Origin: a bacterium | Lineage (GTDB): Bacteria > Blakebacterota > Blakebacteria > Blakebacterales > Blakebacteraceae | Reading direction: 5' to 3' | Length of the DNA stretch: 9,194 nucleotides | Assembly: GCA_025774615.1 (NCBI GenBank) | Contig: JALGVQ010000116.1 | Span: 1 to 9,194, forward strand | In this document: in pieces, positions 357 to 9,194 of the stretch | Layout: each line of letters starts with the position of its first letter | Numbering within the stretch: the first letter of the stretch is position 1 | The notes under the pieces: model-generated | What the model was told of the DNA's origin: nothing | The model's database searches: none | Seen by the model: the letters and a program-made list of their open reading frames with translations, nothing else | Translations under genes and position numbers: made by a program

Positions 357-1831
357 GATCCCCTGCCCTCCCCGCGATTTTCGACCGCTTCGGCCACAAC
401 CTCCCGTTCATCGAATCGAAGACGTTCCGATCCAATCAGCTGATACTGTTCGTGTCCCTTGCCTGCCACGAGAATCACATCACCCGGGAGCGCTTCACTG
501 ATCGCCATTGTGATCGCTTTGCGACGATCGGATTCCACCGAGCAGTCGGCCTCCTGCGGCACTCCTGCCATGATCTCGGCGATTATCGTGTCCCGATCTT
601 CGGTGCGTGGATTGTCGCTGGTCACGATGACGCGATCAGCGCCAAGAGCAGCTATACGTCCCATCAGTGGCCGCTTCCCCCGGTCGCGGTCACCACCGCA
701 GCCGAATACGCATATCACCTTTCCTGCTGCCAGTTCCTGGCACGCGGTGAGTGCCACCTTGAGGGCATCAGGCTTGTGGGCATAGTCGAGTACGACCTCG
801 ACTCCATCCGGAGCCGGCAGGCGCTCCATCCGACCCGCAACGTATCCGAGTGTACCCAGTGATGATGCCACCGCCTCAAGCGGTACCCCCGCCATCAATC
901 CCACTCCGGCAGCTACAAGAAGGTTCTGAACATTGAACGCTCCCAGGAGAGGACTCGACACATCGACCGTCCTCTCCTGCCATGAGAGTTCGAAGGTCAG
1001 ACCGTCCCACCCGACCTTCACCTCCGAGGCGGTCAGATCCGCGTTCGGGGAGAGTCCGACCGTGACGACCGGTGGATCGATCGCCGAAGCCAGCCTCGCA
1101 CCGGCGCTGTCATCCACGTTTATAATCGCGACTCCATCGGGTTTCCGGTGGTGCGTGAAGAGCCTGGTCTTCGCCGCCAGGTACTCTTCCATCGTGGGAT
1201 GGAAATCGAGGTGATCCCTGCCGAGGTTCGTAAAACAGGTGATATCGAACCCGAGTCCATCCACCCGTCCCAGAGAGAGCGCGTGGCTGGAAACCTCCAT
1301 GACCGCCGCTGAATCATCCTCCGAGATCATCCTGGCCAGCATTTTCTGGAGGTCTATCGCTTCAGGTGTTGTGTGTGGCGCGTCCTCTTCATGGCCTCCT
1401 ACGCGGTATGAGATCGTGCCGATCGATCCGACCTGTCCCACCTGCGCTTCAAGCAGGGCGCAAATGAGATACATGGTCGTTGTCTTGCCGTTGGTGCCGG
1501 TGATTCCCACCGTGAAGAGCCGCTCTCCCGGATTGCCCCAGAACGCAGCAGCAAGAGGACCCATGGCTTTGCGCGTATTGTCCGTTACAACCTGCGGCAG
1601 ATCTGATCCCGTCCGCTCCTCCACAAGGGTTGCCGCCGCACCCGCGGCGGCGGCCTCTCCTACGTGGCTGTGGCCATCGGAGGAGAATCCGCGCACTGCG
1701 ATGAAGAGGTCACCCGGCACTACCCGGCGGCTGTCATATGCCAGGCCGGTTATTTCGAGGCCCCTGAACGATTCCCAGCCCTCAGTACGACTGGAGAGAC
1801 CGGCAAATTCCAGGAGTGTTTCGAGCCTCAT
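353..1831 (-). CDS. murE: MurE, UDP-MurNAc-L-Ala-D-Glu:meso-diaminopimelate ligase
   Basis: This cytoplasmic ligase adds the third residue of the peptidoglycan stem peptide. The 492-residue length is normal. The N-terminal domain carries AYDSRRVVPGDLF at 31-43. The central ATPase domain has the P-loop TGTNGKTTT at 111-119, HTTPEA at 153-158, MEVSSHAL at 178-185, NLGRDHLDFH at 202-211 and the lysine normally carbamylated, K221 in YLAAKTRLF. The C-terminal domain has DYAHKPDAL at 349-357, GCGGDRDRGKRP at 377-388, DNPR at 406-409 and GKGHEQYQ at 457-464. DNPR is the known signature of enzymes using meso-diaminopimelate rather than lysine, so a mDAP-type wall is inferred. The ATG overlaps the ftsI stop by four bases, with GGGAG seven bases upstream. 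Its own stop overlaps the murF GTG. No key residue is missing. Confidence 0.97.
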   Translation of the reverse strand: MRLETLLEFAGLSSRTEGWESFRGLEITGLAYDSRRVVPGDLFIAVRGFSSDGHSHVGEAAAAGAAATLVEERTGSDLPQVVTDNTRKAMGPLAAAFWGNPGERLFTVGITGTNGKTTTMYLICALLEAQVGQVGSIGTISYRVGGHEEDAPHTTPEAIDLQKMLARMISEDDSAAVMEVSSHALSLGRVDGLGFDITCFTNLGRDHLDFHPTMEEYLAAKTRLFTHHRKPDGVAIINVDDSAGARLASAIDPPVVTVGLSPNADLTASEVKVGWDGLTFELSWQERTVDVSSPLLGAFNVQNLLVAAGVGLMAGVPLEAVASSLGTLGYVAGRMERLPAPDGVEVVLDYAHKPDALKVALTACQELAAGKVICVFGCGGDRDRGKRPLMGRIAALGADRVIVTSDNPRTEDRDTIIAEIMAGVPQEADCSVESDRRKAITMAISEALPGDVILVAGKGHEQYQLIGSERLRFDEREVVAEAVENRGEGRGS

Positions 1832-3933
1832 CTGCCACTCCCTGAGTTGAGCCCGGCAACCACCCTCAGGTCGGTTCCCCTGTTCACCAGGGTGCCTGCC
1901 CGCGGGTTCTGGTTCCGCACGAGACCGCTGCCTTCAACGCTCAACACCAGTCCAAGTGTGGATGCTTCTGCCGCAGCCTCCCTGAGACTGCGCCCCCTCA
2001 GATCGGGGACGATCACCTGAGAGACCGATTCGGTGATGCCGGGAGCTTCGAGATGGAGGACTACCACCACTCCTTCTTCTACCTGACTGAGTGGCTCTGG
2101 TTCCTGTGAGAGTACCGTGTGCCCTTCTCCCACAAAGCGCATACGGAGTCCCCGCTGATTCAGTGCCTTTCCGGCCTCAGCTGCCGGCCAGCGACGGAGG
2201 TCGGGTACGACCGGCGCGGGACGCTCAACCACCTGGTGGATCGAGGATTGGAATCCCCTCAGTGGATTCTGCGGGTGACAGATGAGTCGCTGGATGGTGC
2301 TGGCAAAAATCGGTGCCGCCACCTCGCTTGCGTAGTACCTGTTCGCCGGCTCATCCACAATCACCAGAAGAAGGAATTTCGGATCGTCAGCTGGAAGGAA
2401 CCCGCAGAAGCTGGAGATATACTGACCGGCCTCGTACCCGGAGGGGCCCGCCTTTCTGGCGGTACCTGTCTTGCCGGCGATCTGCAGTCCTGGAACACGA
2501 GCCTGCTTACCGGTGCCGCCTGATACCGCATCCCTCAGAAAGCCCCTCAGCAGGAGTGATGTCTCCTCATGCATGACCCGTCGGACAACCTGGGTACCAC
2601 CAGCCGAATGCCATCTGCCCTTTTCATCCCTTACCGCATCGACCAGCCATGGTTGCAGCAGGCGTCCCCCGTTGGCGACTGCCGCGTAGGCCGCTGCTAT
2701 CTGGAGCGCGGTGACGGAGATCCCGTACCCGATCGAGAGACTTTCCAGCGCGGGGCCGTACCAGTCCGGCAATTTCCGGAGCACACCTGATGCCTCACCA
2801 GGCAGACCGAGTCCCGTCACCTGGCCGAATCCGAAGTCTCGCGCGTACCGGTAGAGCCGGTTTTCTCCGACATGGCGGGCGATCTTCACGGTTCCCACAT
2901 TGCTCGAAAATTGCAGCACCTCGCCCAGGCTCATCCTTCCGTGCGCATGCACATCACGGATCTCCGAACCGACCACCTGGATCACTCCGTTCCCGCCATC
3001 GATCGTGTCAGCCGGAGTGTAACGGCCTGCGTCAAGAGCTGCGGTGAAGGTCACCAGCTTCAGGACCGAGCCGGGTTCGAAGGGATCGGTGATCGCGCGA
3101 TTCCGCCGCTGCGAAGGATCGACATCATCGGGAGCATTCGGATCGAAGGTCGGCCATCCGGCCATTGCCAGGATCGCTCCCGTTTCCGGATCGAGTGCCA
3201 CGGCGATTCCAGCCGCCGCTTCCGATGATTCGACTCCGCGGGCGAGTTCCTCTTCCAGAACTTCCTGGATCACCGCATCGAGAGTGAGGCGCAGGTCCAT
3301 TCCCGATACTGGTTCCTCCCGGGCAGCATCTCTGCCGGGGATCGACGCGCCAAGCGCGTCGACCTGCTGAACGATACGCCCTGCCCTGCCGCTCAGGACA
3401 TTGTCGTAATCCAGCTCGAGTCCCTCGAGCCCTACACCATCGATACCGGTATACCCGAGCACACTCGAGGCCATCCTCCGCTGCGGATAGGTCCGCCGAT
3501 ATGCCTCGGTGATATCGAGACCGCCAGGCAGTTCATGCGAGGGGGGGGGCTCTTCCAGAAGGTAGATTCTTCGCGCAGCATAGAAGTAGCCCTGGTGATC
3601 TGCGATCTCTGCGAGCCACTCTTCATCTGTTCTTCCCACGAGGGTTGTCAGTCCCCGGGCCACTGCTGCCGCGTCAGTCACGTACTTCGGGTGAACACCG
3701 ACGGTATGGAGGAGTCTGTCGACCGCGAGAAGTCGTCCTTCCCGGTCGAGTATCTCTCCACGCCGGGGCTGAAGGACCTGTTCCTGGAGATGCTGGCGAC
3801 GTGCCTTTTCGTGATATGACGCACTACGAAGGAGCTGGATGTCAGTCAGTCGATAAACACAAATGGCCCATCCTGCCACGAACAGGAGGGCCAGGAGCCG
3901 GAGGCGTCCAGAGTGAAGAGGAGCCCCAATCAT
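1828..3933 (-). CDS. ftsI: FtsI-type class B penicillin-binding protein (septal transpeptidase) with two PASTA domains
   Basis: This is the septal peptidoglycan D,D-transpeptidase, anchored in the inner membrane and acting in the periplasm with FtsW and FtsL. Of 701 residues, a single membrane helix lies at about 11-29. The PBP dimerisation domain covers about 55-200 (RRGEILDREGRLLA at 58-70). The transpeptidase domain covers about 240-550, with SVLK at 289-292 (catalytic S289), SSN at 343-345 and KTGT at 488-491. All three active-site motifs are intact. Two PASTA domains follow (about 575-630 and 638-695, each opening with VPDLR), so the protein is longer than E. coli FtsI and has the architecture of PBP2x or SpoVD. 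The ATG overlaps the ftsL stop as ATGA, and the stop overlaps murE. No standard GGAGG precedes the start; a G10 run ending seven bases upstream may serve. A C9 run encodes the proline triplet at 129-131. Confidence 0.96.
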   Translation of the reverse strand: MIGAPLHSGRLRLLALLFVAGWAICVYRLTDIQLLRSASYHEKARRQHLQEQVLQPRRGEILDREGRLLAVDRLLHTVGVHPKYVTDAAAVARGLTTLVGRTDEEWLAEIADHQGYFYAARRIYLLEEPPPSHELPGGLDITEAYRRTYPQRRMASSVLGYTGIDGVGLEGLELDYDNVLSGRAGRIVQQVDALGASIPGRDAAREEPVSGMDLRLTLDAVIQEVLEEELARGVESSEAAAGIAVALDPETGAILAMAGWPTFDPNAPDDVDPSQRRNRAITDPFEPGSVLKLVTFTAALDAGRYTPADTIDGGNGVIQVVGSEIRDVHAHGRMSLGEVLQFSSNVGTVKIARHVGENRLYRYARDFGFGQVTGLGLPGEASGVLRKLPDWYGPALESLSIGYGISVTALQIAAAYAAVANGGRLLQPWLVDAVRDEKGRWHSAGGTQVVRRVMHEETSLLLRGFLRDAVSGGTGKQARVPGLQIAGKTGTARKAGPSGYEAGQYISSFCGFLPADDPKFLLLVIVDEPANRYYASEVAAPIFASTIQRLICHPQNPLRGFQSSIHQVVERPAPVVPDLRRWPAAEAGKALNQRGLRMRFVGEGHTVLSQEPEPLSQVEEGVVVVLHLEAPGITESVSQVIVPDLRGRSLREAAAEASTLGLVLSVEGSGLVRNQNPRAGTLVNRGTDLRVVAGLNSGSGR
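3541..3549. repeat. Nine-base G/C homopolymer inside ftsI
   Basis: Nine G on the plus strand (C9 in the coding strand) encode three consecutive proline codons at ftsI residues 129-131, between two glutamates and SHE. The reading frame is open on both sides, so the length shown is a functional one. Slippage by one base would shift the frame well before the catalytic domain. Confidence 0.9.
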
Positions 3934-4400
3934 GGGACTGCCCCCCCCCCGGAGGAATCAGCGGCAGCAGGTTCTCCGGCGCGGGCGGATGGGTAGAGTT
4001 GCCGTTCGATTCCTTCAACAGTCATGGCGAACGCGTTTTCCAGATAGATCCGAAGTGATCTCCCCTTTCTGATGGCCGCGGGCAGGACTGCCAGCACCTC
4101 GGTCTGTCCGAGAGGAAATTCCATGTCGAGACGCTGACGCGCCAGTTCGACTACCCGTTCTCCTCTTCTCTCTTCGAGTACTTCCAGTTCGAGTCGATCA
4201 ACAACCCGCTGGATCGCTTTGAACTCCTGCTGGAGGGACTCTACCTGGCCGGCGAGATAGAGGGTCCGGTTCATCCCGCCCAGGTAGAGCAGACACCAGG
4301 CGAATCCCAGGGCTGTCAGCAGCCCCATCCTGCTGCCGGAGAACCGGGTGGGTCTCTCCGGTTTCTTCCGGTGGTTCTTCCGGTTCGTATTCCTGCTCAC
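3930..4400 (-). CDS. ftsL: FtsL-like cell division protein
   Basis: FtsL is a bitopic inner-membrane protein that, with FtsB/DivIC and FtsQ, activates FtsWI at the septum. The 156 residues show a basic cytoplasmic N-terminus (1-24, rich in R and K), one membrane helix at about 25-43, and a predicted periplasmic coiled coil at about 51-92. The FtsL-typical stretch ELARQRLDMEFPLGQTEVL follows at 85-103. Sequence similarity in this family is low; identity rests on this architecture and on the position between rsmH and ftsI. The start is the GTG overlapping the rsmH stop (GTGA), with a GGGAGAGG region upstream. The same frame stays open further upstream, but that part lies inside rsmH. The tail after about residue 110 is longer than in most FtsL proteins and ends in a low-complexity SSGGGAVP coded by a G10 run. 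It overlaps ftsI by four bases. Confidence 0.88.
   Translation of the reverse strand: MSRNTNRKNHRKKPERPTRFSGSRMGLLTALGFAWCLLYLGGMNRTLYLAGQVESLQQEFKAIQRVVDRLELEVLEERRGERVVELARQRLDMEFPLGQTEVLAVLPAAIRKGRSLRIYLENAFAMTVEGIERQLYPSARAGEPAAADSSGGGAVP
3941..3950. repeat. Ten-base G/C homopolymer at the ftsL/ftsI junction
   Basis: Ten C on the plus strand (G10 in the coding strand) lie in the last codons of ftsL (glycines 151-153) and end seven bases before the ftsI ATG. A run of G can pair with the CCUCC of 16S rRNA with one G-U pair, so this tract may act as the ftsI ribosome-binding site; no other candidate is near. It is also a slippage-prone sequence. Confidence 0.9.
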
Positions 4401-5374
4401 TCTGCCCTCTCCCTGGCCAGTCGTTCCGCTACCCTCAACCGCGCGCTCCGTGCCCTGGGATTCCGGGAGATCTCCTCCTGGGACACCTTCACGGCCTTGC
4501 GCGTCAGGACCTCCACCAGCGCCTCGGCACCGCAGGCACACACAGGGAAGCCGGGAGGACATGTGCAGGCCCCGGCCTGCATCCGGAAGAACTCCTTGAC
4601 GATCCGATCCTCCAGAGAGTGATAAGCGATGACCACCAGCCTGCCTCCCGGTCGCAGCACATCGATCGAACCTGCCAGTGCCTGCTCGAGCTGACCCAGT
4701 TCATCGTTGACCGCGATCCTCAGCGCCTGAAAGACCTGACTCAGGACCTTCATGTGACGATGGGGCGGCGTACCTGCCTCGACTACTCTTCGCAGGTCGC
4801 CACTCCGTTCAAGGGGCGCCTCCATTCTGGTCTTCACGATCCTTCGTGCCAGACCACGCGCGTCCCTGACCTCTCCGTACTCGCGGAGTATCCGCCCGAG
4901 TTCTTCTTCCGACTCATCCGCGATCAGATCAGCCGCGGTCATCGGAAGATCGGGATCCATCCTCATGTCGAGCGGGGCATCCGCCCGGTACGTGAATCCC
5001 CGCTCCGGTTCATCCAGCTGGAACGAGGAGACCCCCAGATCGAGCAGGATCCCGTCGAGGGGGAGCATTCCCTCCTCTTCGGTGAATCGCGCGAGATCGG
5101 CGAACGGTCCCTGTCTCAGCACCACCCGTTTCCCATCCCCGATCCTGCCCGCAGTCTCTTTCAAAGCTTCAGGATCCCGGTCGATAGCCAGGATCTCCGC
5201 GCCTTCCTCCAGAACATCCAAAAGGACCGCCAGGTGGCCTCCGCCGCCGACAGTCCCGTCGAGATACCTTCCATCGGCCCTTGTTACGAGCCATTCGATG
5301 GCCGTTTCGGCCAATACCGGAGAGTGATACACCCTGAAATGGCACAGCCTCTGCGCCTGCGACACAGAGGCCAT
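4397..5374 (-). CDS. rsmH: RsmH (MraW), 16S rRNA (cytosine-1402-N4)-methyltransferase
   Basis: RsmH uses S-adenosylmethionine to methylate N4 of C1402 in 16S rRNA, in the ribosomal decoding centre; the gene is a standard dcw member. The 325 residues include the SAM-binding DGTVGGGGH at 39-47, AIDRDPEAL at 63-71, DLGVSSFQLD at 112-121, GFTYRADAPLDMRMD at 126-140, FQALRIAVNDELGQLE at 215-230, AYHSLEDR at 250-257, a cysteine cluster CTCPPGFPVCACG at 270-282, and SRNPRARSARLR at 303-314. These are the family's hallmark blocks, in the right order. The chosen ATG has AGGGA six bases upstream and lies 13 bases after the STAS gene stop. A later in-frame GTG (residue 15, just before HSPVL) is possible but has no good ribosome-binding site. 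The end overlaps the ftsL GTG by four bases. Confidence 0.97.
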   Translation of the reverse strand: MASVSQAQRLCHFRVYHSPVLAETAIEWLVTRADGRYLDGTVGGGGHLAVLLDVLEEGAEILAIDRDPEALKETAGRIGDGKRVVLRQGPFADLARFTEEEGMLPLDGILLDLGVSSFQLDEPERGFTYRADAPLDMRMDPDLPMTAADLIADESEEELGRILREYGEVRDARGLARRIVKTRMEAPLERSGDLRRVVEAGTPPHRHMKVLSQVFQALRIAVNDELGQLEQALAGSIDVLRPGGRLVVIAYHSLEDRIVKEFFRMQAGACTCPPGFPVCACGAEALVEVLTRKAVKVSQEEISRNPRARSARLRVAERLARERAE

Positions 5375-5387
5375 GCAGATTCCCTGC

Positions 5388-5738
5388 TCAGGCGATCTGC
5401 TGAACGCCGAAGCTGGCCAGGGCCTCCCGGGGAGTTTCGTAGATATCGATGAGCCGATCGGCTCCTACGAACTGGAAAGCGTCAGCAACCGTGCCATGCA
5501 GACCGGTGACCTTCACTTCTCCTCCGGCACCGCGGAATCTGAAGGCCCGCTCACTGAGCAGGCCAACACCGCGGTAATTGATGTCTCCGACTCCCTCGAA
5601 ATCGAGGATCATTCTGCGGACATGATTCTCCTGGTGGCGCTGCAGAAGGTTGTCGAGATCGACCATTGCCATCGCAGTGATCTCCCCCTCCAGGTGAAGA
5701 ATCCTGATGCCGCGGATCTCTTCCTCATTACTCGTCAT
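5388..5738 (-). CDS. STAS-domain protein, anti-sigma-factor-antagonist-like, inside the dcw operon
   Basis: This small single-domain protein (116 residues from this ATG; 118 from a GTG at 5744) has the STAS fold pattern: IRILHLEGEIT near the N-terminus, VRRMILDFEGVGDINYRGVGLL in the middle, GGEVKVTGLHGTVADAFQFVG, and EALASF near the end. STAS proteins such as SpoIIAA and RsbV bind anti-sigma kinases in the cytoplasm and are controlled by phosphorylation of a serine in a DSSG-like motif. Here the equivalent reads NYRG (56-59 in the longer numbering), so that serine is absent and phospho-switching at this site cannot occur. The ATG is preferred because AAAGG lies nine bases upstream; the GTG would have it only three bases away. 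The gene sits 24 bases after mraZ and 13 before rsmH, so it should be co-transcribed with the division genes. Partner and function are unknown; a role in division or envelope control is only inference. Confidence 0.88.
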   Translation of the reverse strand: MTSNEEEIRGIRILHLEGEITAMAMVDLDNLLQRHQENHVRRMILDFEGVGDINYRGVGLLSERAFRFRGAGGEVKVTGLHGTVADAFQFVGADRLIDIYETPREALASFGVQQIA

Positions 5739-5762
5739 GGACACCTGCCTTTACCGAACGGG

Positions 5763-6203
5763 TCAGAACAGCACATCCTCTGCCAGTTTTTCGAACTCAT
5801 CCTCCATGTCGGCGGTATACGCCGCGAACATCCCGGGATCCCAGATCTCGATGTGATCGAGCATGCCATTGATCACGACATCCTTGTCGAGCCTTGCCCA
5901 CTTCGTCAGGTTGGGTGGGAGCATGATCCGGCCCTGCTTGTCACAAACGGCATACGTGGCACTCGATGCGAACATCCGTACCCACTTGCGGGATCTCTCA
6001 TCAGACATCGGCTGGTCGCGCAGGATCGAAGCTTTCTGCTCCCAACGATCTATGGGGTAGACGAAGAGGCACTTGTCGTGACCAATAGTCACAACGAAGG
6101 TCTCCTTCGTCTCGGGCATGAGTTCCCGCCGGAATTTGGCTGGAACACTGACGCGCCCCTTCTCGTCGAGGGAGTAGTTATATTGTCCAAGGAAATCGGG
6201 CAT
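5763..6203 (-). CDS. mraZ: MraZ transcriptional regulator of the dcw cluster
   Basis: MraZ is an AbrB/SpoVT-type DNA-binding protein, usually the first gene of the dcw cluster, which in E. coli represses its own operon by binding TGGGN repeats. The 146 residues match the family length (E. coli 152). Both swapped-hairpin domains carry the signature: DEKGRVSVPAKFR at 13-25 and DKQGRIMLPPNL at 88-99. The ATG has AGGAG four bases upstream. The promoter side of the gene holds three TGGGN-like boxes at 10-bp spacing, consistent with autorepression. The next gene, a STAS protein, begins 24 bases downstream in the same direction. No residue of the signature motifs is missing. Confidence 0.97.
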   Translation of the reverse strand: MPDFLGQYNYSLDEKGRVSVPAKFRRELMPETKETFVVTIGHDKCLFVYPIDRWEQKASILRDQPMSDERSRKWVRMFASSATYAVCDKQGRIMLPPNLTKWARLDKDVVINGMLDHIEIWDPGMFAAYTADMEDEFEKLAEDVLF

Positions 6204-6238
6204 TCGGCTCCTGTGCCTTATCAGTGATCATGGGCATT

Positions 6239-6263
6239 TCCCACAATTACCCATTTTTTACCA
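6239..6263 (-). promoter_or_regulatory. MraZ operator: three boxes at 10-bp period
   Basis: Read on the minus strand, the boxes are TGGTA (6263-6259), TGGGT (6253-6249) and TGGGA (6243-6239), each separated by exactly five bases. This is the known MraZ site architecture (TGGGN repeats with 5-bp spacers). The first box has one mismatch. An inverted TGGGC lies at 6231-6235 on the plus strand. The sites lie 36-60 bases before the mraZ start, just downstream of the promoter candidate, a position suited to repression. Confidence 0.8.
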
Positions 6264-6272
6264 CTGCGGCAC

Positions 6273-6302
6273 AGGTTAGGTGCGAAATGCAATGAGCGTC
6301 AA
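6273..6302 (-). promoter_or_regulatory. Candidate sigma70-type promoter for the mraZ (dcw) operon
   Basis: On the minus strand, TTGACG (6302-6297) is a 5-of-6 match to the -35 hexamer. After 18 bases comes TAACCT (6278-6273), a weak -10 matching only at the first, second and last positions. An AT-rich block at 6330-6303 directly upstream resembles an UP element. The predicted start site near 6266 would place the MraZ boxes within the first 30 transcribed bases and give a leader of about 60 bases. The weak -10 limits confidence. Confidence 0.5.
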
Positions 6303-6360
6303 GTAGAAATCATAATCTTTTTATTTATCGTACAGGACCACTCTACGCACCGTTTACCGT

Positions 6361-6405
6361 TCATATAGGTGTAATAACATACAAATAACTACAATTGAGT
6401 CGCAT
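6361..6405 (-). CDS. Possible 14-residue small ORF with a strong Shine-Dalgarno
   Basis: The ORF runs from an ATG at 6405-6403 to a TGA at 6363-6361 and would encode MRLNCSYLYVITPI. It is preceded by a perfect AGGAGG (6416-6411) with a five-base spacer, a better ribosome-binding site than most genes in the window have. The peptide is short and hydrophobic, with two tyrosines. It lies between the upstream gene and the mraZ promoter candidate, so it would be translated only from RNA started further upstream. It could be a leader peptide, a small protein or chance; nothing in its composition suggests a classical attenuation peptide. Its ribosome-binding site falls within an inverted repeat. Confidence 0.3.
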   Translation of the reverse strand: MRLNCSYLYVITPI

Positions 6406-6407
6406 TT

Positions 6408-6423
6408 GTTCCTCCTGAGGAAC
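6408..6423. repeat. Inverted repeat GTTCCTC-CT-GAGGAAC
   Basis: Two perfect 7-base arms are separated by two bases. In DNA this could be a dimeric-protein site. In minus-strand RNA, allowing a hairpin loop would unpair some inner bases; the structure covers the AGGAGG of the small ORF. There is no T-run after either arm, so it is not a rho-independent terminator. Confidence 0.6.
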
Positions 6424-6503
6424 CATGAGAACCGGAATATCCCCCACATTTTTTCGAAATGGACTGCTCTTTCCGGCGATATCTCGATAGATCAGGAGAA
6501 TGG

Positions 6504-6516
6504 GACTGATTCAGTC
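6504..6516. repeat. Perfect 13-base palindrome GACTGA-T-TCAGTC at the end of the upstream gene
   Basis: Six-base arms flank a single central base, overlapping the stop codon (6515-6517) of the gene ending here. No U-run follows on the minus strand (the next bases are CCATTCTCC), so it does not look like an intrinsic terminator. It may be a small protein-binding site or chance. Confidence 0.45.
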
Positions 6517-7894
6517 AGAAAAATCTCAGCTTCAGCGTAACACCCGATATCCGTCCTTCCTGCAGGACACCGGTCGATGTGTTGACACCGTCTGCCATCC
6601 AGGGCGATATGGTGACGGTTAAACGATTCCGACCTGCCGAACCGGGCACCAGACCGGTCTGTCCTGCCGGTGACTCACGCAGTGTCCCGGTGATGAGGGC
6701 CGCTACAGCTCCAACCAGACGACCCGCCACAATCCCGCTCAGAGCGATCTTTGCCCGGTTCTCCGCCAACCGGGAATCCCTCCTCAATTCACGATACCGT
6801 TTCCACGATGATTCTGAGTCCCATCGCCACTCATAACCGATACCGGCAGGATACGCTTCCGAGGGGGAGCCGAGCCCTGATCGCTGGACGGCGTTATAGG
6901 TTGTGAAGTCGGGATAGAGCGCAAGTACCCGATAGTATCCGGAATCCTTGAGCCAGGGATCAGCTCCGGCATGAGATACTGCCCAGCGGCGACTGTCATC
7001 CAGCATCCAGTCGCTGTAGACGCTGAACGCCTTGAGACCACCCCAGAACATTCCCTCACAGAGCGTCAACACACCCGCCAGCCCGCGCTTTCCCTGCAGG
7101 CGCTGTCCCCAGCCGGGGAAGAGCAGGCTTCTGGCCGCCGCGCCCCAGGGTGTGAGTTCCCGGGATCGGGAGTGAGTGTTGCCGGAGGGCTCACCACCGC
7201 TGAAAAGAACTTCCGTACCGGCGGCAAGGTGATTCAGGAACACCAGCCCACCCGCGGTCAGGGACCACTTCAGGTATCGGTTCGCCTCGAAACGTCGATT
7301 CAGATAGCTCTCGCGTGATCGGGAGACTCCACGCCAGGGAACATCCCAGGAGGCGTGCCAGTCGGTCCAGCCGGGGGCGAACTGATCATATTTTCCGATC
7401 ATCTCGTAGTAATCGTGATCGCGTATATCCGCCGGAGGCAGGGTATGGTGATCGTGGGGCCAGGGAGACCCGGTGAGCGACTCGAAGGTCGTCAGATATT
7501 CGAGATACCGGTCCCTCTCCCAGTTGAGATCGGCGAACCGTTCATATTCCCCCTTCAGCCCCCTCCCCTCATGGCGTGCCCAGAGACCACTCCCGATCAG
7601 CGCAGCTTCGGTCGCGATGAGTCCCCACCCCCACGATCGCCCGGTCAGAATCTGACCACTGCCGGGCAGCGCCAGGGAGGCCAGCGCCGCTTTCCAGGGA
7701 AGGGAGGCATACTCCTCTTCCTGATCTGCCTGCCGGGAGGTCAGCGCGAGGAGTCGCAACCCTGATACTTCCCGATCGGGCAGTTCGATCCCGACCTGTT
7801 GAGCGTGCAGTGCCGGTATCGGGGAGAAGCCCGTTACCAGGAGGATCGCACATGCAAGCAGGACTGAATGACTTCTTCCGGTATACCGGTCCAT
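6515..7894 (-). CDS. Exported protein with two DUF5683-like PGxGQ modules, function unknown
   Basis: I do not know a specific function. The 459 residues begin with a signal peptide (MDRYTGRSH, hydrophobic core at about 10-24, likely cleavage after ALHA at 28-31). The body contains a module twice: SLALPGSGQ at 73-81 and SLLFPGWGQ at 256-264. Each is followed by a glycine-rich hydrophobic segment (about 82-106 and 265-291). Each half also ends in a charged stretch and another hydrophobic helix (about 209-226 and 382-402). This resembles the DUF5683 family of FCB-group bacteria, in duplicate. The C-terminus, alternating and ending VTLKLRFF, looks like a last outer-membrane strand, but this is weak. 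The ATG lies two bases after the upstream stop and gives the signal peptide at residue 1. The frame is open for 43 codons further upstream, but that part overlaps the preceding gene and lacks signal-peptide character. It is probably co-expressed with the secreted protein before it. Confidence 0.8.
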   Translation of the reverse strand: MDRYTGRSHSVLLACAILLVTGFSPIPALHAQQVGIELPDREVSGLRLLALTSRQADQEEEYASLPWKAALASLALPGSGQILTGRSWGWGLIATEAALIGSGLWARHEGRGLKGEYERFADLNWERDRYLEYLTTFESLTGSPWPHDHHTLPPADIRDHDYYEMIGKYDQFAPGWTDWHASWDVPWRGVSRSRESYLNRRFEANRYLKWSLTAGGLVFLNHLAAGTEVLFSGGEPSGNTHSRSRELTPWGAAARSLLFPGWGQRLQGKRGLAGVLTLCEGMFWGGLKAFSVYSDWMLDDSRRWAVSHAGADPWLKDSGYYRVLALYPDFTTYNAVQRSGLGSPSEAYPAGIGYEWRWDSESSWKRYRELRRDSRLAENRAKIALSGIVAGRLVGAVAALITGTLRESPAGQTGLVPGSAGRNRLTVTISPWMADGVNTSTGVLQEGRISGVTLKLRFF

Positions 7895-7896
7895 GA

Positions 7897-9194
7897 TCAC
7901 CGCACCACCATCAGGGTGAGCCGGTGTCGACCGAGACTCTTGCCAGGGTTCAGGGTTGTGATCGTGCCCACCTGCTCCACGACCAGATGGTAGATACCGG
8001 GAGCGAGATGGGAGACATCCCAAGTGGCTTCGACGACACGATTGAATCCCGTGGGATTGGATTCTGAAGAGAGGGTGGCAACGGTCCCGAGACGCGTGCC
8101 AGTGGCCGTAAAAGCCCGCACGATCAGGTCTCCCTCGAATCCCTCGGCCCGGATTGTGCAGCGGTCCCGGGTCGGATTCGGGTAGAGGTAGATGATGTCG
8201 GGGGCGATCGTCTCATCCTCAACAACCCCCTCCCTGAAATGCAGGGGGATTCCCCGACCACTGGCGCTTCCCCCCGGCCCCCCCCAGACCGGTTCGACTT
8301 CTGAAAGTCCTGTTGCTCCCAGCGAGTTGACCCGGAGACTGTCCTCGTCGCTGTACAGGAAGCGTATCGGCTCCGAGCCACCTCCTCCCAGTGTCACCGG
8401 GCTTATCGGACGGGTGGAGAGCTGGCGAGCGGGTCCAGCGGAGAGTTCTGCAACCGCGTTGAAAAGCATGACCTCGTCGGCATTGGTGAGACCGATCGTG
8501 ACACCGTCCGTCAGGGTGAGGGGAATTCCGATGAAAACAGGTGGATCCTCGGAGGCTCGCCCACCGGGGGCCGGTGGCCAACCAGCCACGGGCAGACCCT
8601 CGGCCCAGATGGCCCTGAGACCGTCAATGGTTGGCACGATCATGGCCGACTGGCGCATCGCCGACAGGTAGGCGACCGAGATAGTTCCGGTCGGATCAGG
8701 CAGGTCGAGACTCCATTTGACCTCCAGAACCTGCCAGGCGTTCCAGGCCAGCCACGTCAGGGTACCCCGGGCGGTCAGGGTCACGACATCCCATCCCCCC
8801 AGTGGAGCCGGGGTCGAATGGGGAGCAAAGAGATAATCGATGATGGGATCATCTCCGGTCCATACAACCCGGGATTCTCCACCACTCTCTGGTATCAGAT
8901 GGATCAGTTCCTCCTCGACGACAGCGATCCGTCTATAATCCCTGGAGCAGGTCAGTCGTGAGATTCCGGGGCGGGCGGACCATCCATCCACGATCCCCAT
9001 CTCGGTAATCTCGAATACCTCTCCCGTTTCCACCACGACAAGTGCAGTCGCCTTGTCCAACACGGGATAGCCAACCGGCCGGCAGGAGATCGTGGAACCG
9101 AGATCGAATGAAGCGGTCTCGGTTCCGAGTCCATCCAGGAAGGTGATGGATGACCCGGCAGCCACGACGATCCGGTCGTGGGCCAGAGTAAGTC
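7897..9194 (-). CDS. Secreted propeller-like protein with C-terminal T9SS-type sorting domain (N-terminus beyond right edge)
   Basis: About 431 residues are visible and the frame is still open at the right edge, so the start is outside the window. A GTG at 9165 is in frame but lies within what reads as continuous protein (LTLAHDRIVVAAGSSITFLDG), so I do not take it as the start. The body consists of short beta-strand-like segments of the kind VVVETGEVFEI, RIAVVEEELIHLI and VVTLTARGTLTWLAW, and a GLPVAGWPPAPGG motif, typical of propeller or VCBS-like surface proteins. The last 100 residues hold YLYPNPTRDRCTIRAEGF, a GDLIVRAFTATGTRLG strand, WDVSHLAPGIYHLVVE and a final LTLMVVR. This is the pattern of type IX secretion sorting domains, also similar to FlgD-like repeats. 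Such domains are removed during export and the protein is released or anchored at the cell surface. The molecular role is unknown. It is followed two bases later by the DUF5683-like gene. Confidence 0.82.
   Translation of the reverse strand, partial: LTLAHDRIVVAAGSSITFLDGLGTETASFDLGSTISCRPVGYPVLDKATALVVVETGEVFEITEMGIVDGWSARPGISRLTCSRDYRRIAVVEEELIHLIPESGGESRVVWTGDDPIIDYLFAPHSTPAPLGGWDVVTLTARGTLTWLAWNAWQVLEVKWSLDLPDPTGTISVAYLSAMRQSAMIVPTIDGLRAIWAEGLPVAGWPPAPGGRASEDPPVFIGIPLTLTDGVTIGLTNADEVMLFNAVAELSAGPARQLSTRPISPVTLGGGGSEPIRFLYSDEDSLRVNSLGATGLSEVEPVWGGPGGSASGRGIPLHFREGVVEDETIAPDIIYLYPNPTRDRCTIRAEGFEGDLIVRAFTATGTRLGTVATLSSESNPTGFNRVVEATWDVSHLAPGIYHLVVEQVGTITTLNPGKSLGRHRLTLMVVR
8278..8285. repeat. 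Eight-base G/C homopolymer in the propeller gene
   Basis: Eight C on the plus strand (G8 in the coding strand), beside a second run of six at 8270-8275, encode the glycine-rich segment VWGGPGGSASG just before the sorting domain. The frame is open through both runs. The low-complexity glycine stretch reads as a linker between the propeller body and the sorting domain. Confidence 0.7.

Follow-up and report, generated by a model that had tools for sequence, protein, structure and literature searches.

A small gene for a single-domain STAS protein without the phosphorylatable serine stands between mraZ and rsmH at the head of the dcw cluster in the stretch of DNA analyzed here (9,194 nucleotides, called the window below), and it belongs to a recurrent family instead of being an oddity of one genome. 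The order mraZ–STAS–rsmH was verified in at least seven phylum-level groups and in 36 family-level groups, a distribution wider than the earlier sequence-only reading of this DNA had assumed. With middling confidence, we regard the dcw-linked STAS protein as a phospho-switch-free single-domain protein that would bind one putative partner via the usual STAS face, with a dose set by dcw transcription, and act on division or the envelope.

Organization of the dcw Cluster in the Window

The dcw cluster of the window lies on the minus strand and starts with mraZ (positions 5763–6203; PF02381, E 2.4e-30), followed by the STAS gene (5388–5738; 116 aa; Pfam PF01740, E 4.5e-14) and rsmH, also called mraW (4397–5374; PF01795, E 2.1e-99). 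Between rsmH and ftsI there is an ftsL-like gene (3930–4562) with a weak DivIC match (E 0.011) that is kept in the relatives; its ORF overlaps rsmH and the true start is probably farther downstream. The cluster continues with ftsI, coding for a transpeptidase with PASTA domains (1828–3933; PF00905, E 1.7e-75; PASTA, E 3.1e-21), with murE (353–1831; Mur ligase domains) and with the beginning of another Mur-type ligase gene. The PASTA domains of the FtsI-type transpeptidase are C-terminal. Elsewhere in the window (7897–9165), the same genome encodes a protein that weakly matches Por secretion-type C-terminal sorting domains.

The STAS ORF was listed as 5388–5744 on the minus strand with a GTG start at 5744. 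The ATG at 5738 is the likelier start since this GTG is situated inside a Shine–Dalgarno-like AGGTG. The mraZ stop codon is separated from the STAS ATG by 24 nt and the STAS stop codon from the rsmH ATG by 13 nt; in the region 5200–6600, neither a terminator-like site nor a sigma-70 promoter was found by the respective scans. The sequence-only reading had placed a STAS gene between mraZ and rsmH with short gaps, which the Pfam matches and the measured distances confirmed, and had argued that its position favors joint production with the division genes, which the same distances and the terminator scan support.

A putative MraZ operator, TGGT-N6-TGGG-N6-TGGG with 10-bp spacing, was located upstream of mraZ (6240–6263, minus strand). 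The TGGGN6TGGG pattern, with 0.67 matches expected over a window of this size, occurs here only in the operator core, TGGGTAATTGTGGG (6240–6253), and TGGT precedes this core with the 10-bp spacing maintained. A genus-mate (G001) and a further family member (G002) have an identical core upstream of mraZ, and similar repeats are present upstream of mraZ in G004, G026, and G173. The MraZ boxes of E. coli have this form, and on the basis of this resemblance the operon, STAS gene included, is probably under MraZ. Co-transcription of the STAS gene with the dcw genes and its control by MraZ are thus probable, as judged from spacing and motifs.

Fold and Conservation of the STAS Protein

The window protein scored 52.6 bits against PF01740 (curated cut-off 22.6), and all 66 scanned dcw STAS proteins matched this profile at E 0.01 or better. 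Structure modelling, a check proposed in the sequence-only reading, was run in AlphaFold2 with an alignment of these 66 proteins as input and gave a confident SpoIIAA-like fold (pLDDT 94.2, pTM 0.88). The top fold match of the model was SpoIIAA from the SpoIIAA–SpoIIAB complex (Z 17.5, rmsd 1.8, 112 residues), and further matches were other STAS domains, including RsbS and the STAS domains of SulP proteins.

The STAS protein of the window is 93% identical to its counterpart in G001 and 84% identical to that in G002; the corresponding values are 88% and 62% for MraZ, 78% and 65% for RsmH, and 71% and 50% for FtsL. The dN/dS ratios of the STAS gene amount to 0.04–0.07 in these comparisons, those involving G002 being rough with synonymous sites near saturation. 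The dcw STAS gene of this family is under strong purifying selection, and its product changes less than RsmH or FtsL. That the ORF did not arise by chance is implied by the closely similar copies at this locus in both relatives, the low dN/dS, and the occurrence of the arrangement across phyla.

The loss of a known functional residue would suit a functionless, decayed STAS paralogue located in the operon by accident. We consider this next to impossible and rejected it, as it is ruled out by conservation: dN/dS is low (0.04–0.12), the gene is intact in all 62 matching genomes of one phylum, and the proteins have a conserved signature of their own.

Loss of the Switch Serine across the Family

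In the window protein the switch motif reads D-I-N-Y-R-G, with Tyr aligned to the phospho-Ser of SpoIIAA. The claim of the sequence-only reading that the switch serine is missing, which puts this residue out of reach of the standard kinase/phosphatase switch, was therefore upheld. An alignment revealed no conserved Ser or Thr that would speak against it, these residues being absent from the switch position in 149 of 151 distinct dcw STAS proteins (the two others come from loci L136 and L268). The 149 proteins have Tyr (94), Ala (10), Leu (10), Val (9), Phe (8), or other residues there, whereas 42 of 43 distinct STAS proteins encoded outside dcw clusters have Ser or Thr. The Fisher p-value for this difference is 5.6e-39; after collapsing at 50% identity, Ser/Thr was present in 0/32 dcw proteins vs 28/29 elsewhere (p 1.5e-16), and at 40% identity in 0/23 vs 23/24, the p-values serving only as a guide because the proteins are related and the non-dcw set was chosen by similarity to the dcw profile. 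Some members from the G207 phylum carry a Ser or Thr one residue after the switch position (NVSG, NATG), and this residue might be modified instead.

Other columns are also specific to the dcw proteins relative to other STAS domains, namely Glu-Arg in helix 2 and G-x-N-x-Y after strand 4, a signature that suggests a common specific partner. In a tree built with the switch columns excluded, the dcw and the other STAS proteins separate with three label changes. A tree with all dcw proteins in one clade had a log-likelihood 20.4 above that of the free search and a p-AU of 0.847 (switch columns again excluded), so that a single clade is not rejected, in agreement with an earlier tree. The simplest reading of these results would be a single old dcw STAS family, although about 105 columns are not proof of one origin.

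Distribution of the mraZ–STAS–rsmH Arrangement

A profile built from eight dcw STAS proteins was used in the first search of 386 genomes and gave a clear top group of matches situated between mraZ and rsmH (G000, the genome of the window, and G001, G002, G004, G026, G173, G311, G030, G042, G059, G142, G279, and G207). In the window's own phylum, all genomes searched belong to its family. Sampling by phylum, with match counts that vary with E-value cut-offs and genome completeness, showed the dcw STAS gene in 3/3 genomes of the G026 phylum, 1/3 of the G042 phylum, and the only genome of the G059 phylum. The profile matched 62 of 68 genomes (68 species) of the G279 phylum, with all 62 matches in dcw context, some of them at contig ends, and 34 of 45 genomes of the G207 phylum, where all 30 examined loci were in dcw context. 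Among the 117 sampled genomes of the G030 phylum, every examined Ser-less match adjoins mraZ and/or rsmH; the five examined DSSG matches (L292–L296) are not beside these genes. The seven groups, counting that of the window, represent separate phyla. The link to mraZ and rsmH, which scattered homologues would have undermined, thus held for the Ser-less relatives.

A separate sample comprised 87 mraZ loci, i.e., the best-scoring mraZ matches and one locus per further family. A STAS gene was found in the mraZ–rsmH gap at four of them, representing four additional families (G134, G341, G314, and G094), and the switch residue is Phe or Tyr in all four. The dcw STAS gene is therefore recurrent, though most bacteria are without it.

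Several variants of the locus were seen. In one family of the G207 phylum the mraZ–rsmH gap contains two tandem STAS genes (L127, L128, L129, L131, L133, and L134), both without the switch serine. Gaps of 290–475 bp in other families hold different small ORFs (L187, L163, L165, L213, L223, and L240), that of L187 resembling, by our own reading, a MerR-type regulator. The ORFs in the long gaps of these loci and of L221 gave no significant STAS match and were left uncounted. In G496 (L279), a 12 Mb genome, the order STAS–rsmH–ftsL is kept with no mraZ adjoining.

Candidate Partners and Mode of Action

The dcw STAS proteins resemble SpoIIAA and RsbV in being single STAS domains of about 115 aa with the same fold and the same G-x-G and GG-D-L-K framework; they differ in lacking the phospho-Ser and an adjacent kinase or phosphatase gene and in their location in the dcw cluster. 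Against the NCBIfam models of the SpoIIAA/RsbV type the window protein scored below the cut-offs (41.1 bits vs 53.45 for TIGR00377 and 31.4 bits vs 114.75 for TIGR02886). The remaining STAS proteins of the window's genome (contigs C7 and C172) have Ser at the switch. On contig C7 (12272–12981) a Ser-bearing STAS gene (MNSSG) directly adjoins the gene for an RsbW-type kinase, the best kinase match of the genome, and a Ser-bearing STAS gene and RsbW-type kinase pair is also present in G001 and G002.

A non-phosphorylatable SpoIIAA/RsbV protein could be a constitutive anti-anti-sigma factor, always bound to an RsbW-type anti-sigma kinase and tying a sigma factor to division-gene expression. SpoIIAA is the nearest relative in fold and sequence among solved structures, and RsbW-type kinases are encoded by many carriers, including the genome of the window. 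Nevertheless, we find this role rather improbable: the best kinase gene in G000, G001, and G002 directly adjoins a separate Ser-bearing STAS gene, and the neighbors of the window's dcw STAS gene are mraZ and rsmH, with no kinase gene adjoining. Moreover, no strong RsbW/SpoIIAB-type match was detected in four carriers, G311 (92% complete, best E 6.7e-7), G314 (100%, 6e-6), G513 (96%, 2.6e-6), and G597 (89%, none), which makes an anti-sigma kinase unlikely as the general partner.

The neighboring gene products were weighed as targets as well, since the mraZ–rsmH interval is the nearly invariant place of the dcw STAS gene. The protein might bind MraZ, relieving or setting dcw repression, or modulate RsmH, and MraZ and MraW are known to act antagonistically (PMC8475190, citing Eraso et al. 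2014). On the other hand, binding is not demonstrated by gene neighborhood alone, most bacteria have mraZ–rsmH with no STAS gene between them (as in all but 4 of the 87 sampled loci), and G496 retains the STAS gene where mraZ does not adjoin it, although mraZ is possibly elsewhere in that genome. Altogether, we rate a partnership with either neighbor as doubtful.

The N-terminal domain of MinC has a SpoIIAA-like fold. The dcw STAS protein might act as this domain does and regulate FtsZ where MinC is absent, and indeed none of the dcw STAS carriers among the 386 sampled genomes had a MinC_C match. With MinC present in just 63 of the 386 genomes, however, its absence from some 15 carrier families carries no significance (about 6% expected by chance, by our own estimate). 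No MinC_N profile match was obtained by sequence, and MinC was not among the fold matches listed, although a resemblance may exist beyond that listing. We judge this role very unlikely.

STAS proteins that regulate partners outside sigma control are exemplified by MlaB of the MlaFEDB lipid transporter (PMC7367683). In the MlaFB structure, Thr52 of MlaB, the equivalent residue, is located close to the middle of the interface with the partner, and the largest number of contacts comes from helix 2 (PMC7367683), which renders the switch position a plausible binding spot. In SpoIIAA, RsbR, and RsbS this position is the phosphorylation site, and phosphorylation disrupts binding; the stressosome proteins RsbS and RsbR retain a phosphorylatable Ser/Thr (PMC7367683). 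The dcw STAS proteins share the fold of RsbS/RsbR (6jhk, Z 16.3), but the latter assemble with RsbT and none of that context is found at the dcw STAS genes. MlaB retains Thr and belongs with an ABC ATPase, whereas the STAS gene of the window has dcw neighbors only, with no MlaF, MlaE, or MlaD; the NCBIfam model of MlaB matches 19 of the 66 dcw STAS proteins, weakly.

We return to the preferred reading, a dosage-controlled protein free of the phospho-switch. The sequence-only reading had suggested a constitutive partner-binding protein or a STAS adaptor for division or envelope control, and both would be candidate roles here. The STAS gene would be transcribed together with mraZ, rsmH, ftsL, ftsI, and murE from a promoter that MraZ probably controls, and the protein level would accordingly follow division-gene expression. 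The protein would bind one partner via the usual partner-binding face of STAS domains, made up of the switch loop and helix 2, with an aromatic residue (Tyr or Phe) in most members taking the place of the phospho-Ser at the binding face. Tyr is not universal at this position (Leu, Ala, Val, Asn, and others occur), which counts against the proposal. The fold and helix 2 were kept and the serine was replaced mostly by an aromatic residue; hence, binding was most likely kept and control by phosphorylation dropped. Binding would then be set by dose and not by phosphorylation, and the target would most likely be cell division or envelope synthesis.

Implications

The STAS domain itself is known; in the literature searched, which lacks most subscription journals, no description was found of the dcw STAS family, of its location among the dcw genes, or of the consistent loss of the switch residue. 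None of the papers retrieved there connects mraZ or the dcw cluster with a STAS gene, and the dcw and mraZ papers whose text was searched for STAS show no such gene in the cluster.

With about even confidence, we propose that the family is an undescribed, widespread dcw component, an ancient phospho-switch-free STAS family that may regulate division or septal wall synthesis through its dosage in several phyla, probably including Myxococcota. Few bacterial gene clusters have been studied as much as the dcw cluster. A small gene without an assigned role that is conserved at the head of this cluster in whole phyla, under strong selection, suggests that a part of division control is still missing from the picture. 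The family departs from the rule of a broadly conserved Ser/Thr at the switch position, and phospho-independent partner binding by STAS proteins becomes a directly testable question. If the carriers include relatives of Myxococcus and Corallococcus, a tractable organism would be at hand for such experiments.
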